DNA of 33,838 nt. It comes from an uncultured Bacilli bacterium (lineage in GTDB: Bacteria > Bacillota_I > Bacilli_A > RF39 > UBA660). Location of the stretch: assembly GCA_947624275.1 (NCBI GenBank), contig CANQJR010000007.1:1-33838 (forward strand), written 5' to 3'. The position numbers were made by a program, and so were the translations under genes. The notes beneath the pieces were generated by a model. That model saw only the letters and a program-made list of their open reading frames with translations, did no database searches and was not told the origin of the DNA. This document shows positions 6,398-12,903 of the stretch, piece after piece (position 1 is the first letter of the stretch; each line of letters starts with the position of its first letter).

Positions 6398-6438
6398 GGA
6401 AAAAATTACCAACTACGATAATTTATAAAAATGATTAG

Positions 6439-6447
6439 TGTTAAAAT
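6439..6447 (+). promoter_or_regulatory. Extended -10 promoter of the XRE regulator
   Basis: TGTTAAAAT. It overlaps the GTG at 6438 used by the ORF track, so that codon cannot be the start of a transcript made from here. Confidence 0.6.
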
Positions 6448-6473
6448 ATTGGCAAAGGAGTTCGGTAGTTGTT

Positions 6474-7175
6474 ATGGATTATGAAAAGATCGGTGAATAT
6501 ATCCAAATAAAGAGAAAAGCTATTAATATGACACAAGCTGAATTGGGAGAAAAACTAGGTGTCACCAGCAAAGCAGTATCGAAATGGGAATGTGGAGTTG
6601 CTCTACCTGATGTCTCTTTATTTACTGACTTGTGCAAAATATTAAATATTGAAATAACGGAATTATTAGAAGGCAAAGATAAGAATGATGAAAATTTAAT
6701 TATTAGTAAAAGAAAGAACATTATCATTGCTATTCTGAGCATTGTTTTAATTCCACTATTGCTAATAAGTATAGCATTAGGACTTTATTATGAACAAAAT
6801 CATGATAATGTGCACGTATATGATATCGTCAGTGATAATAATGATTTTAAAATAACTGGTACTCTCATTTCCATAAATGATGATAACTATATAAACATTT
6901 CTGATATCAGATATGTACCACAACATGAAACTAAAATATTATATGGTACTAAAATCGAGTGCGAGTTGTACTATCAGGATGATTTATTAGTAAAGAAAAA
7001 TAATCTCATCGAAACTTTAAATAGTTTTAACAATCATTTATCATCTGTATCTTTATATCACAAATTTAATATATCCAAAGATGCCGACTGGGCTGATTAT
7101 TTAATTTTAAGAATTAATTTTACTGATAATAATGAAATCATGAGGCAATTTACAACAGGTTTATTGTTAAAATAG
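6474..7175 (+). CDS. Membrane-anchored XRE-family transcriptional regulator
   Basis: A 233-residue protein. Residues 1-65 are a Cro/C1-type helix-turn-helix (MTQAELGEKLGVTSKAVSKWECG, then PDVSLFTDLCKILNIEITELLEG), close to many Firmicutes XRE regulators. One membrane helix follows (about 77-98), then an outer domain of about 135 residues of unrecognised fold. The start is the ATG at 6474, which gives the usual distance to the HTH; AAAGGAG lies 13 nt upstream, longer than usual. A cytoplasmic DNA-binding head with an extracellular domain suggests signal sensing across the membrane; the signal and target are unknown. Confidence 0.8.
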   Translation: MDYEKIGEYIQIKRKAINMTQAELGEKLGVTSKAVSKWECGVALPDVSLFTDLCKILNIEITELLEGKDKNDENLIISKRKNIIIAILSIVLIPLLLISIALGLYYEQNHDNVHVYDIVSDNNDFKITGTLISINDDNYINISDIRYVPQHETKILYGTKIECELYYQDDLLVKKNNLIETLNSFNNHLSSVSLYHKFNISKDADWADYLILRINFTDNNEIMRQFTTGLLLK

Positions 7176-7179
7176 TCTA

Positions 7180-7196
7180 GTAGAATTAAATTCTAC
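7180..7196 (+). other. Hairpin without T-tract after the XRE regulator
   Basis: A 7-bp perfect stem (GTAGAAT/ATTCTAC, loop TAA) lies 5 nt after the stop. It is followed by CAAATTCG rather than Ts, so it looks more like an mRNA end-protecting or operator structure than a terminator. Confidence 0.4.
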
Positions 7197-7270
7197 CAAA
7201 TTCGAATAACAATATGTGTCTTATTTAGGTTCAATTTATTAATCTAAAAAGCGGAAAGGAGAGAAAAAGT

Positions 7271-8125
7271 ATGAAAAAGAAGTTGTTTGTATTATTGTTT
7301 GCTCTAATTTTAATGCCTATGATGACTTTGGCAGATGAATATGATTACGTGAACTACTTTGGTGTTGGAATGAGCAAAGAACAATATAATAATTTATTAG
7401 AATTAGGTTTTTCCGAAAGTGAAATTACTTATATGTCTGAAGAAGAATTTAATGCTAATAAAGATGTTGTCGGAAAACTTGAAGCTGACGTTACTAATTA
7501 CTATGTAAATGTAGTTAGATATGACATTACTGGAAAAATAGTAAGTTCCAGTGATATGCAAATATCTAAAGAAGACTATATGAATAGTGATAACTTACTA
7601 ATGCCACTTGGTGATGGTTTAGTCGGTACATCTTATAAAGAAATGCGAACGACGATAGCTAAAGCTGATTCTAAATATCGCTATAAGGTAAATTTGAAGT
7701 GGAAAACGATGCCTGCAACTAGAAGTTACGATATCATCGGTATCGGTTTTGAACCAAATGTTTATCTAAATAGTGATATTAATTTTCAACAGAAGTATTG
7801 CTCACTCAACATTTGTAAGACTAATACAGCAATTAATAGTAGCAGTGTAAATCCTAATGGTGTTGGTGTAAGTTTCTTACTTCCATCATCTAAAGAGATC
7901 ACTTCTATGGAGTCGACGTTGTATTTCGATGTATCTAAAGTTATAAGTGGTACTATTAAATTGATGACCGCTTATGGCGATTATTCACATGCGACGAAGA
8001 AGATTGCTGGTGGCGCAGCGCAAATGTTTGCAGTAAATCAAGCCGGAGTCGATTTATCTACAACTATTGAAGACTACTATGATGCTATCGATTCGGCTGC
8101 AGCAACTTGGTCAGGAACTTGGTAA
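7271..8125 (+). CDS. Secreted protein of unknown function
   Basis: A 284-residue protein with a clear Sec signal peptide (MKKKLFVLLFALILMPMMTLA, cleavage after LA) and a GGAAAGGAGAG ribosome site. After it come YFGVGMSKEQYNNLLELGF and ITYMSEEEFNANKD, a helical N-terminal unit also seen in small exported proteins of Bacilli, then a beta-rich domain (LKWKTMPATRSYDIIGIGF) with a short C-x4-C pair (CSLNIC). It ends ATWSGTW. No catalytic motif was found. The next ORF follows after 9 nt in the same reading frame. Its neighbour and secretion suggest a surface or inter-bacterial role, but this is speculation. Confidence 0.75.
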   Translation: MKKKLFVLLFALILMPMMTLADEYDYVNYFGVGMSKEQYNNLLELGFSESEITYMSEEEFNANKDVVGKLEADVTNYYVNVVRYDITGKIVSSSDMQISKEDYMNSDNLLMPLGDGLVGTSYKEMRTTIAKADSKYRYKVNLKWKTMPATRSYDIIGIGFEPNVYLNSDINFQQKYCSLNICKTNTAINSSSVNPNGVGVSFLLPSSKEITSMESTLYFDVSKVISGTIKLMTAYGDYSHATKKIAGGAAQMFAVNQAGVDLSTTIEDYYDAIDSAAATWSGTW

Positions 8126-8134
8126 TTTAAGAAT

Positions 8135-8806
8135 TTGGAACAACATAGATTTAGCAAATTAGAAAGAGCAATAATGTTATCGTGTATGATTGGTTTCATG
8201 ATATGTCATCTTTTGTATAACTATTATATTTCTCATTATGAGACCCATGATAATGCTGTTGGTGTTTCTAGCAATCATTTGATAGAAAATGTAGAATTAA
8301 AGAGTGATTATTACCCAGTTTATAAAGATGTAATTGTTGATTGGAATGGTATAAGTCTACGTATTAATCATATTAATTTTAGATCACAAGACATCGTAAA
8401 AGGTCGAGATGTCAAAAACGAATATGAAGTAGTATTATCTAAAAAGTATTTGCCCTTACTCAATAGTAATATTGATCTTGTCCTAAATGCCAAACATTAT
8501 TACTTTAAAGTAGTCGGAATTCACGATGACGTTTTAAATGAAGAGTTTGGGCAAGTTACTTCCGATATGCTGCTTTCACTACACAAATCATCTAGAGATA
8601 TTACTGATTATAGATATGTTTTTATTGTAGACGACTATGATGAATTAAATTCTAATATCGATATCCTCAAGAAAAATGGTTATGATTTAAACATTATTGA
8701 TAATGAAGGCTTTGGTGTAATAAGCAGTTATAATACCATAATTGCTATCTTTACATTAGTTAGCTCAATATTATTATCATTTCTTTTCATCAATATTGTC
8801 TTTTAG
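8135..8806 (+). CDS. MacB/FtsX-like membrane protein with a single C-terminal helix
   Basis: A 223-residue ORF. It has an N-terminal membrane helix (about 12-30), an outer domain of about 160 residues with the look of the MacB periplasmic core (EYEVVLSKKYLPLLNSN, then YYFKVVGIHDD) and a C-terminal helix (TIIAIFTLVSSILLSFLFINIVF). ABC permeases of this type carry three further helices after the core; here the protein stops after the first, directly before a terminator, so it is either truncated or a stand-alone derivative. The TTG start lacks a ribosome site; the ATG at 8174 is an alternative. It shares frame with the preceding secreted-protein gene, separated by one TAA. Confidence 0.6.
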   Translation: MEQHRFSKLERAIMLSCMIGFMICHLLYNYYISHYETHDNAVGVSSNHLIENVELKSDYYPVYKDVIVDWNGISLRINHINFRSQDIVKGRDVKNEYEVVLSKKYLPLLNSNIDLVLNAKHYYFKVVGIHDDVLNEEFGQVTSDMLLSLHKSSRDITDYRYVFIVDDYDELNSNIDILKKNGYDLNIIDNEGFGVISSYNTIIAIFTLVSSILLSFLFINIVF

Positions 8807-11422: not shown

Positions 11423-11451
11423 TTGACATTTTTATGTTTTTATGATATAAT
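11423..11451 (+). promoter_or_regulatory. Upstream promoter P1 of the small membrane protein pair
   Basis: TTGACA, 17-nt spacer, TGATATAAT: a full consensus -35 and extended -10. The TTGACA lies in the loop of a 7-bp inverted repeat (AAAACAT...ATGTTTT). A 5-3-5 palindrome (TGATAGTCTATCA, 11467-11479) follows in the early transcribed region. Confidence 0.85.
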
Positions 11452-11500
11452 ACTACCACATTTAGATGATAGTCTATCAATTGGAAAAATCGTCAAATAA

Positions 11501-11529
11501 TTGACAAATTTGCTGTGTTGTGGTATAAT
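11501..11529 (+). promoter_or_regulatory. Downstream promoter P2 of the small membrane protein pair
   Basis: TTGACA, 17-nt spacer, TGGTATAAT, again perfect and extended. P1 and P2 are 78 bp apart and share the sequence after the -10 (ACTACCACATTT versus ACTACACATTT), so they look like a duplicated unit. GTCAA-N4-TTGAC overlaps the P2 -35 and could be an operator. Confidence 0.88.
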
Positions 11530-11560
11530 GACTACACATTTGAATTAGGGGGAATACTAA

Positions 11561-11896
11561 ATGAAAACAAATATTGCATATGATATGGCTAGTAATGATT
11601 ATACTAGAAATTATAATGTTGATAATGAACTTGAAAAAATTGATACTGCACGTGGTGTAGTAAGATTTAACAAAAGATTCTTTGCTACATGTGCAAGTCT
11701 TGGTGGTGTTGCTACTTTGATTGGTACTACTTGTTTAGTTGTTGCTGGTGTAGCTACTGCTCCAGTTGTCGCAACTGGTCTAGGAGTTGCTTCATTAGTA
11801 ACTGGTACTTCATTTTATCAAGTAGAAAAACGTCAAGAAAGACAACTTCATGAAAAAGAAAAAGTACTCATGACAAACTACAATAGAATGAGATAA
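11561..11896 (+). CDS. Small two-helix membrane protein, first of a pair
   Basis: A 111-residue protein, ribosome site AGGGGGAAT. A polar N-terminal part of about 40 residues (YTRNYNVDNELEKIDTARG) is followed by a Gly/Ala/Thr/Val-rich hairpin of two membrane helices (about 44-64 and 66-84, with TAPVVATG between) and a charged C-terminal helix (VEKRQERQLHEKEK). No family recognised. It shares layout and the motif ARG-x(2)-x-N-K with the next protein (IDTARGVVRFNK versus LNIARGNLKINK). Codons are strongly biased to GGT, GCT, ACT and GTT and two perfect promoters precede it, so high expression is likely. Both termini are presumably cytoplasmic. Confidence 0.72.
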   Translation: MKTNIAYDMASNDYTRNYNVDNELEKIDTARGVVRFNKRFFATCASLGGVATLIGTTCLVVAGVATAPVVATGLGVASLVTGTSFYQVEKRQERQLHEKEKVLMTNYNRMR

Positions 11897-11923
11897 ATAG
11901 GAAAATAAAAGGGGGAATTTCTT

Positions 11924-12292
11924 ATGGCACGTAATGTACAATTTTCAAACAATTTAAAAAATGATAGTAGTTATAATCAATACTTAAATAGTAATTGGGC
12001 TACCTTGAACATTGCTCGTGGTAATCTTAAAATCAATAAGACCAATATGACTAAATTGGTGCGTGGTGTTTCTAAAGGTACTTTGATTGCTTCAGGTATT
12101 GGTATAGCATACTGTGGTTTATCGACGATTGCTTGTATGGTCAATCCAAGATTGTCTCTTTTTGATGCTGCTGGTTATGCAGTTGGTGCTATTGCTTTAG
12201 GATTTTTGGCCAAATACTCATATAAAGTGAATAAACATTATAAATATAAAGCACAAGTAATGGAAGAAAAGAAAACAAAGATAAAGAGATAA
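11924..12292 (+). CDS. Small two-helix membrane protein, second of a pair
   Basis: A 122-residue protein, 27 nt after the previous gene with its own ribosome site (AAGGGGGAAT), so co-transcribed. Same plan: Asn/Ser-rich N-terminus (SNNLKNDSSYNQYLNSN), the ARG/NK motif (IARGNLKINK), two membrane helices (about 50-72 and 78-98, with MVNPRLS between) and a Lys-rich C-terminus. The likeness to its neighbour suggests an old duplication or two partners of one complex. Family unknown, no catalytic motif. A strong terminator follows. Confidence 0.7.
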   Translation: MARNVQFSNNLKNDSSYNQYLNSNWATLNIARGNLKINKTNMTKLVRGVSKGTLIASGIGIAYCGLSTIACMVNPRLSLFDAAGYAVGAIALGFLAKYSYKVNKHYKYKAQVMEEKKTKIKR

Positions 12293-12297
12293 ATGAG

Positions 12298-12329
12298 AAA
12301 AATATTAACATTATTGTTAATATTTTTTT
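12298..12329 (+). terminator. Strong terminator of the small membrane protein operon
   Basis: A 12-bp perfect stem (AAAAATATTAAC/GTTAATATTTTT, loop ATTATT) ending in a T-run. Confidence 0.9.
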
Positions 12330-12379: not shown

Positions 12380-12402
12380 ATAATGAGAATAGGGTGGAGA
12401 AA

Positions 12403-12903
12403 ATGAAAAATAGAAATAATGGTTTTACTTTGATTGAGATGTTGGCCGTAATAGTCATTATCGGAATATTGGTATTAGTATCAATACCAGCTGTTACTCA
12501 TCAAATCGATCAGAGTAGGAAAAAGACATATATCGATATTGCTAGTGAATACATCGAAATGGCGGCGACAGAAGCAGCTAAGGGTACGTTTCCAATCAGA
12601 AGAACGGATACGACTTACTACATCCATATCAACAATTTGCACACTGAGAGTAAGAGGGACAAAAGTCCATACGCTGCTTGGGTAGATGCTTATGTAGTAG
12701 TAAATTTATCTAGTGACAATGATTATGAATACTATTGGGTTAGTGTCGATGAGACTGGTCATCGCATTGATGTAACTAAAGAACCCGATTTGCGCGAAAG
12801 TAGTGTCATCGAGTCTACTAAACGTACTATTGATATAAAACCAATTGATGGTAGGCTTTATGTAACTTGTTGGGATAGAACGGGTAATCGTGTCAATTCT
12901 TAA
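12403..12903 (+). CDS. Type IV prepilin-like (pseudopilin) protein
   Basis: A 166-residue protein with a class III prepilin signal: short basic leader (MKNRNNG), cut before FTLIEMLAVIVIIGILVLVSIP, with the conserved Glu at +5. The rest is a soluble domain with a C-terminal beta sheet (YYWVSVDETGHRIDV) and one cysteine. It resembles competence or type II-like pseudopilins, which need a PilD-type peptidase and an ATPase; none lies in this window. The start is the ATG at 12403; the GTG at 12394 in the track lies inside the ribosome site (AGGGTGGAG). No terminator separates it from the glyS T-box leader. Confidence 0.85.
   Translation: MKNRNNGFTLIEMLAVIVIIGILVLVSIPAVTHQIDQSRKKTYIDIASEYIEMAATEAAKGTFPIRRTDTTYYIHINNLHTESKRDKSPYAAWVDAYVVVNLSSDNDYEYYWVSVDETGHRIDVTKEPDLRESSVIESTKRTIDIKPIDGRLYVTCWDRTGNRVNS

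Follow-up and report, generated by a model that had tools for sequence, protein, structure and literature searches.

What are the two small membrane protein genes that stand side by side behind a pair of consensus promoters in an uncultured Bacilli bacterium, and do their products belong together? The window, that is, the whole stretch of DNA that was analyzed (33,838 nucleotides), corresponds to contig C7 of a draft genome of 1.04 Mb, whose closest named relatives are uncultured Bacilli recovered from gut metagenomes of animals. The local gene order is XRE regulator, secreted protein, membrane protein, flippase, YitT, A, B, pilin-like gene, glyS, rpsO, pnp, and lon, where the names of neighbors lacking a Pfam hit were read from their sequences. 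A sequence-only reading of this locus had proposed that genes A and B encode an abundant membrane complex of two related subunits, possibly regulated. Here, we examined this proposal by comparative genomic, profile-based and codon usage analyses.

The A-B unit and its promoters

All features of the unit lie on the forward strand. Two promoters, P1 (11423..11451) and P2 (11501..11529), are located upstream of gene A, 78 bp apart. Each consists of TTGACA, a 17-nt spacer and TATAAT (12 of 12 consensus bases), with a TG one base upstream of the -10 box (extended -10; TGA in P1 and TGG in P2). These are the only two perfect TTGACA-17-TGn-TATAAT sites in the whole window, whereas such sites averaged 0.005 over 200 dinucleotide-shuffled sequences. 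G002, G004 and G007 carry a counterpart of P1 at the equivalent position, and P2 is kept in relatives. Tandem promoters spaced by 78 to 111 bp precede gene A in G000, G002, G004 and G007; in G003 and G008 one promoter is found upstream of A and the other between A and B.

The duplicated promoters had been described as sharing similar downstream sequence, and both the geometry and this likeness hold, with CACATTTAGATGA at 11457 matching CACATTTGAATTA at 11535. When the pair's 12 promoters (six species) are aligned, no gaps are needed, and every one of them has CAYATTT starting 5 nt downstream of its -10 box. Provided that RNA synthesis starts at the usual distance, CAYATTT would correspond to the first transcribed bases, a role that we infer for CACATTTAGATGA after P1 (11457..11469) and, from its match to the P1 downstream sequence and the alignment with relatives, for CACATTTGAATTA after P2 (11535..11547).

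A presumed ribosome-binding site, AGGGGGA (11547..11553), precedes gene A, and its GGGGG is kept before A in all six species. The two adjacent ORFs of 111 and 122 amino acids noted earlier are present: gene A (11561..11896) and gene B (11924..12292), the latter preceded by a second presumed ribosome-binding site, AGGGGG (11910..11915). Both encode two-helix membrane proteins and have relatives in five other genomes. The unit is closed by a terminator hairpin (12296..12329), followed by a T run, for which the fold z-score is -5.5 and no shuffled sequence folds as well. The terminator as such had been recognized correctly; its stem measures 15 bp, mostly A+T, rather than the 12 bp originally given, and its loop 4 nt. 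Strong hairpin terminators stand behind B in 6/6 species (z = -5.4 to -9.0).

Regulation through the palindromes noted at the promoters is not supported. Both palindromes are there, at 11467-11479 and 11492-11505, but as many 5-bp palindromes turn up in 27% of shuffled versions of the region and relatives lack them; we therefore attribute them to chance and dropped them as operator candidates. As for a structured RNA leader after P1, the fold z-score is -0.4 and an Rfam search of the region gave no match.

In the window's own genome, an extended -10 box followed by YRCATTT occurs at these two sites only; in G171, a member of another genus, it occurs ahead of several unrelated genes. The -10 box with a CACATTT start element was seen at unrelated genes of other genera in G171 (L187, L188, L191, and L192) and G021 (L070), in a list of loci enriched for such sites, as many loci were fetched with that very pattern. 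The genes behind it include one for a large secreted protein in G171 and one for a small secreted protein upstream of glyS in G021. Its position ahead of unrelated genes in both genomes argues for a reused promoter element, not one private to A and B.

Paralogy and predicted architecture of A and B

An ARG/NK motif common to A and B had been noticed by eye. Direct BLASTP comparison of the two proteins is weak (23% identity over 66 residues). A profile built from A proteins alone matches B in its own genome at 4e-4, the B profile reciprocally finds A, and hhalign comparison of the two profiles gives a probability of 91.8% (E = 7e-7) over 31 aligned columns, where reversed-sequence controls reach a best E of 0.19. 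These reciprocal matches, together with the profile alignment, lend the motif statistical support. The 31 columns correspond to the soluble stretch ahead of the first helix, E-x-I-x-T-x-x-G-x-I-x-x-N-K-x-F-F, and the hydrophobic helices are not part of the alignment. In A, the pre-membrane motif comprises residues 25-42 (11633..11686; ELEKIDTARGVVRFNKRFFA region), and in B residues 22-42 (11987..12049). The profile evidence indicates that A and B are paralogs, related through the pre-membrane motif and not through their membrane helices.

AlphaFold2 models of A and B are of low confidence (mean pLDDT 54 and 50, respectively) and place two strands in the motif, followed by two helices. A structural similarity of the two proteins, with a beta hairpin and then two helices in both models, is thus only hinted at, and a fold search with the low-confidence model of A returned no useful match. 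The membrane hairpin of both proteins is flanked by basic residues on either side and its loop is a few residues long; by the positive-inside rule, both ends of A and B most likely lie in the cytoplasm. MscL, a two-helix channel subunit, is of about the same size, with two membrane helices, both ends cytoplasmic, and a charged C-terminal helix. However, the outer loop of MscL is long, unlike that of A and B, for which we found no Pfam or PDB match.

Conservation, codon usage and gene neighborhood

The sequence-only reading had made the co-occurrence of A and B in related genomes a test of its proposal, and the pair is indeed adjacent, in the same order and at the same site, in 6 of 9 genomes from the genus. 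The remaining three (G001, G005, and G006) lack it, and there YitT leads directly into the pilin-like gene, with flippase, YitT, pilin-like gene and glyS all present. Since the flanking genes are joined without the pair in these genomes, A and B are present or absent as a unit, and their absence from three species of the genus argues for an accessory rather than essential role. A rough genus tree is compatible with a single loss of the pair in the G001/G005/G006 clade; gain and loss are not told apart, because the tree lacks a root and is mixed in its glyS part, with glyS replaced-looking in G003, G004 and G008. The glyS genes of these three genomes (L042 5369-6742, L043 4373-5746, and L045 4354-5727) are 62-65% identical to glyS of the window, unlike their pnp genes, with at least 90% identity, and this looks like replacement by a foreign copy.

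Within the genus, A proteins are 25-34% identical to A of the window and B proteins 19-35% identical to its B. The codons had been described as of the highly expressed type, which the adaptation ranks confirm, above all for A. Relative to ribosomal-protein codons from two genomes of the genus, A ranks first in its neighborhood in 5/6 genomes and B in the sixth, B being second or third in four more. When only genes of the window's own genome serve as reference, A (0.786) is second to rpsO (0.811), which itself belongs to that reference set, and B reaches 0.690. Values of dN/dS between G003 and G008 are 0.39 for A and 0.18 for B, compared with 0.05 for YitT and 0.02 for glyS. These values identify A and B as true coding genes that are under purifying selection yet change fast for genes with such codons. 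Slow evolution is usual for highly expressed proteins (PMC9635659).

The pilin-like gene (12394-12903) lies directly after B in all six pair-bearing genomes, which raises the possibility that A and B are its accessory membrane proteins, anchoring or assembling a type IV filament-like structure. We consider this improbable. A terminator separates B from the pilin-like gene in 6/6 genomes, G001, G005 and G006 have this gene at the same site although they lack the pair, and its codon adaptation in the window is low (0.596 vs. 0.786 for A). Co-transcription with the pilin-like gene, or constant presence beside it, as would be expected of type IV filament accessory proteins, was therefore not found in these genomes. 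Given that pair-less genomes keep flippase, YitT, pilin-like gene and glyS together, the adjacency reflects general synteny, and we discarded this neighborhood as a guide to function.

Three further observations concern the surroundings of the pair. The pilin-like gene upstream of glyS is short (163-185 amino acids) in five pair-bearing genomes, including that of the window, and long (684-707 amino acids) in the three pair-less genomes (L238 2670-4733, L239 2883-5006, and L240 753-2843); it is also long in G007 (L044 300-2354), although this genome has the pair. Locus L078 of a relative encodes a different membrane protein of 157 amino acids, without the A-B motif, immediately upstream of glyS (about 668 to 195 bases before it; glyS at 8419). 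Finally, a block at 6438-8806 of the window is found again in relatives, whole or in part. It encodes an XRE regulator that has a membrane helix, a secreted protein with the pattern VNYxGxxMSxEEYxNLxxLGF, and a small membrane protein; a Pfam search assigned the secreted and the small membrane protein to no family.

Relatives, known families and a proposed role

A combined profile matched 9 of 385 family genomes, of which three belong to the genus. The strong scores of G117 and G171 arise by construction, as sequences from both were included in this profile; independent support for their relatives comes from a search with the A profile and from comparison with reversed controls. Beyond the genus, the credible relatives comprise single proteins of G117 (L194) and G094 (L223), and proteins of 88 and 84 amino acids encoded directly after lspA in G171 (L193) and G274 (L222), respectively, in another genus. 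Like A and B, all four have a motif of the T-x-x-G-x-I-x-x-N type, two hydrophobic helices and a charged tail; they differ in standing at other genomic sites, and have neither a family name nor a tested function. Those of G117 and G094 are single genes, unlike the A-B pair, whereas those of G171 and G274 adjoin another small two-helix protein (118+88 amino acids at L193 1820-2477; 117+84 amino acids at L222 3500-4145), with homology to A detectable in the second member only. XRE-type regulators with a two-helix tail (G332 and G232) were also matched by the profile, probably through composition.

The earlier statement that A and B match no recognized family stands, as nothing scored above cut-off in Pfam, NCBIfam, PHROGs, PADLOC or PDB, searched with single proteins and, for Pfam and PDB, also with family alignments. 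A weak profile match of A (residues 26-106, E = 0.0043) to Pam17 (PF08566) is seen in only 1/6 A members and reaches 17.4 bits against a cut-off of 25.4; moreover, Pam17 is a mitochondrial import factor. The best PHROGs match (E = 0.001) covers only part of the profile of a family with 527 positions and unknown function, and does not place the proteins among phage holins or other phage membrane proteins.

The two-helix layout, fast evolution and patchy presence of the pair might also fit a membrane effector with two components that serves a conflict or defense system (pore-forming two-helix, SLATT-type or holin-like), or a bacteriocin-like or immunity pair, inactive until triggered. SLATT-type proteins are two-helix conflict proteins with the same layout as A and B, and two of the six A members resemble CyanoTRADDas_TM (PF20712) at E below 0.1 (best E = 0.015). 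However, this likeness stays under the Pfam gathering cut-off (15.8 vs. 24.3 bits), and no B member falls below E = 0.1. PADLOC offered no fitting model, with no match for B and one weak stray Cas8a-model match for A (E = 0.0067, 14 bits). Nor does any nucleotide-sensing, toxin, protease or lysin partner lie beside the pair, which differs from CyanoTRADDas_TM and SLATT-type conflict proteins in having conserved strong promoters and no conflict-system partner genes. Strong promoters and ribosome-like codons would be odd for a lethal effector, and viral contigs yielded no relatives of A or B, while phages and plasmids yielded none of A, on which grounds we also rejected a mobile origin. We regard a defense role as unlikely, and links of the pair to defense or to the adjacent pilin-like gene as weak. 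Less probable still is that A and B are unrelated proteins alike by composition, with a double promoter born of recent local duplication and devoid of special meaning, for despite the weak BLASTP match and poor structure models their alignment falls on the soluble motif, not the helices, and promoter geometry is kept across six species despite diverging proteins.

The explanation that we favor, tentatively and with somewhat less than even confidence, is that A and B form, as two paralogous hairpin subunits, a single structure of the cytoplasmic membrane that is made constitutively and in abundance. Two strong sigma-70-type promoters would drive the terminated two-gene unit constitutively, and both proteins would be made in high abundance. 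A and B may then come together through their helices, which are rich in small residues, and their pre-membrane beta hairpins and basic tails would form a cytoplasmic face. The role of the pair is most likely that of an accessory structural or channel-like envelope component. The original idea of two related, adjacent subunits, highly expressed by codon usage, is in this respect supported by their paralogy, by their pairing in 6/9 genomes and by the codon ranks. Several points count against this explanation: the structure models are poor and matched nothing useful, the predominance of single proteins among relatives beyond the genus suggests that pairing is not universal, and an abundant protein with a purely structural role would not usually evolve so fast.

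On a broader and rather doubtful view, the pair would represent an abundant membrane system specific to this lineage of uncultured gut Bacilli, with a new pre-membrane motif and a distinct promoter class, in which CAYATTT would serve as a regulator target or initiation element reused at other genes in related genera. Whatever their role, A and B are small membrane proteins that combine codon adaptation at the level of ribosomal proteins with only about a quarter to a third identity between species of the same genus, and with no named family. The conserved promoter element provides a testable clue to how transcription works in a group that has no cultured model, and if A and B are as abundant as their codons suggest, they would be a major uncharacterized part of the membrane of these uncultured gut bacteria.
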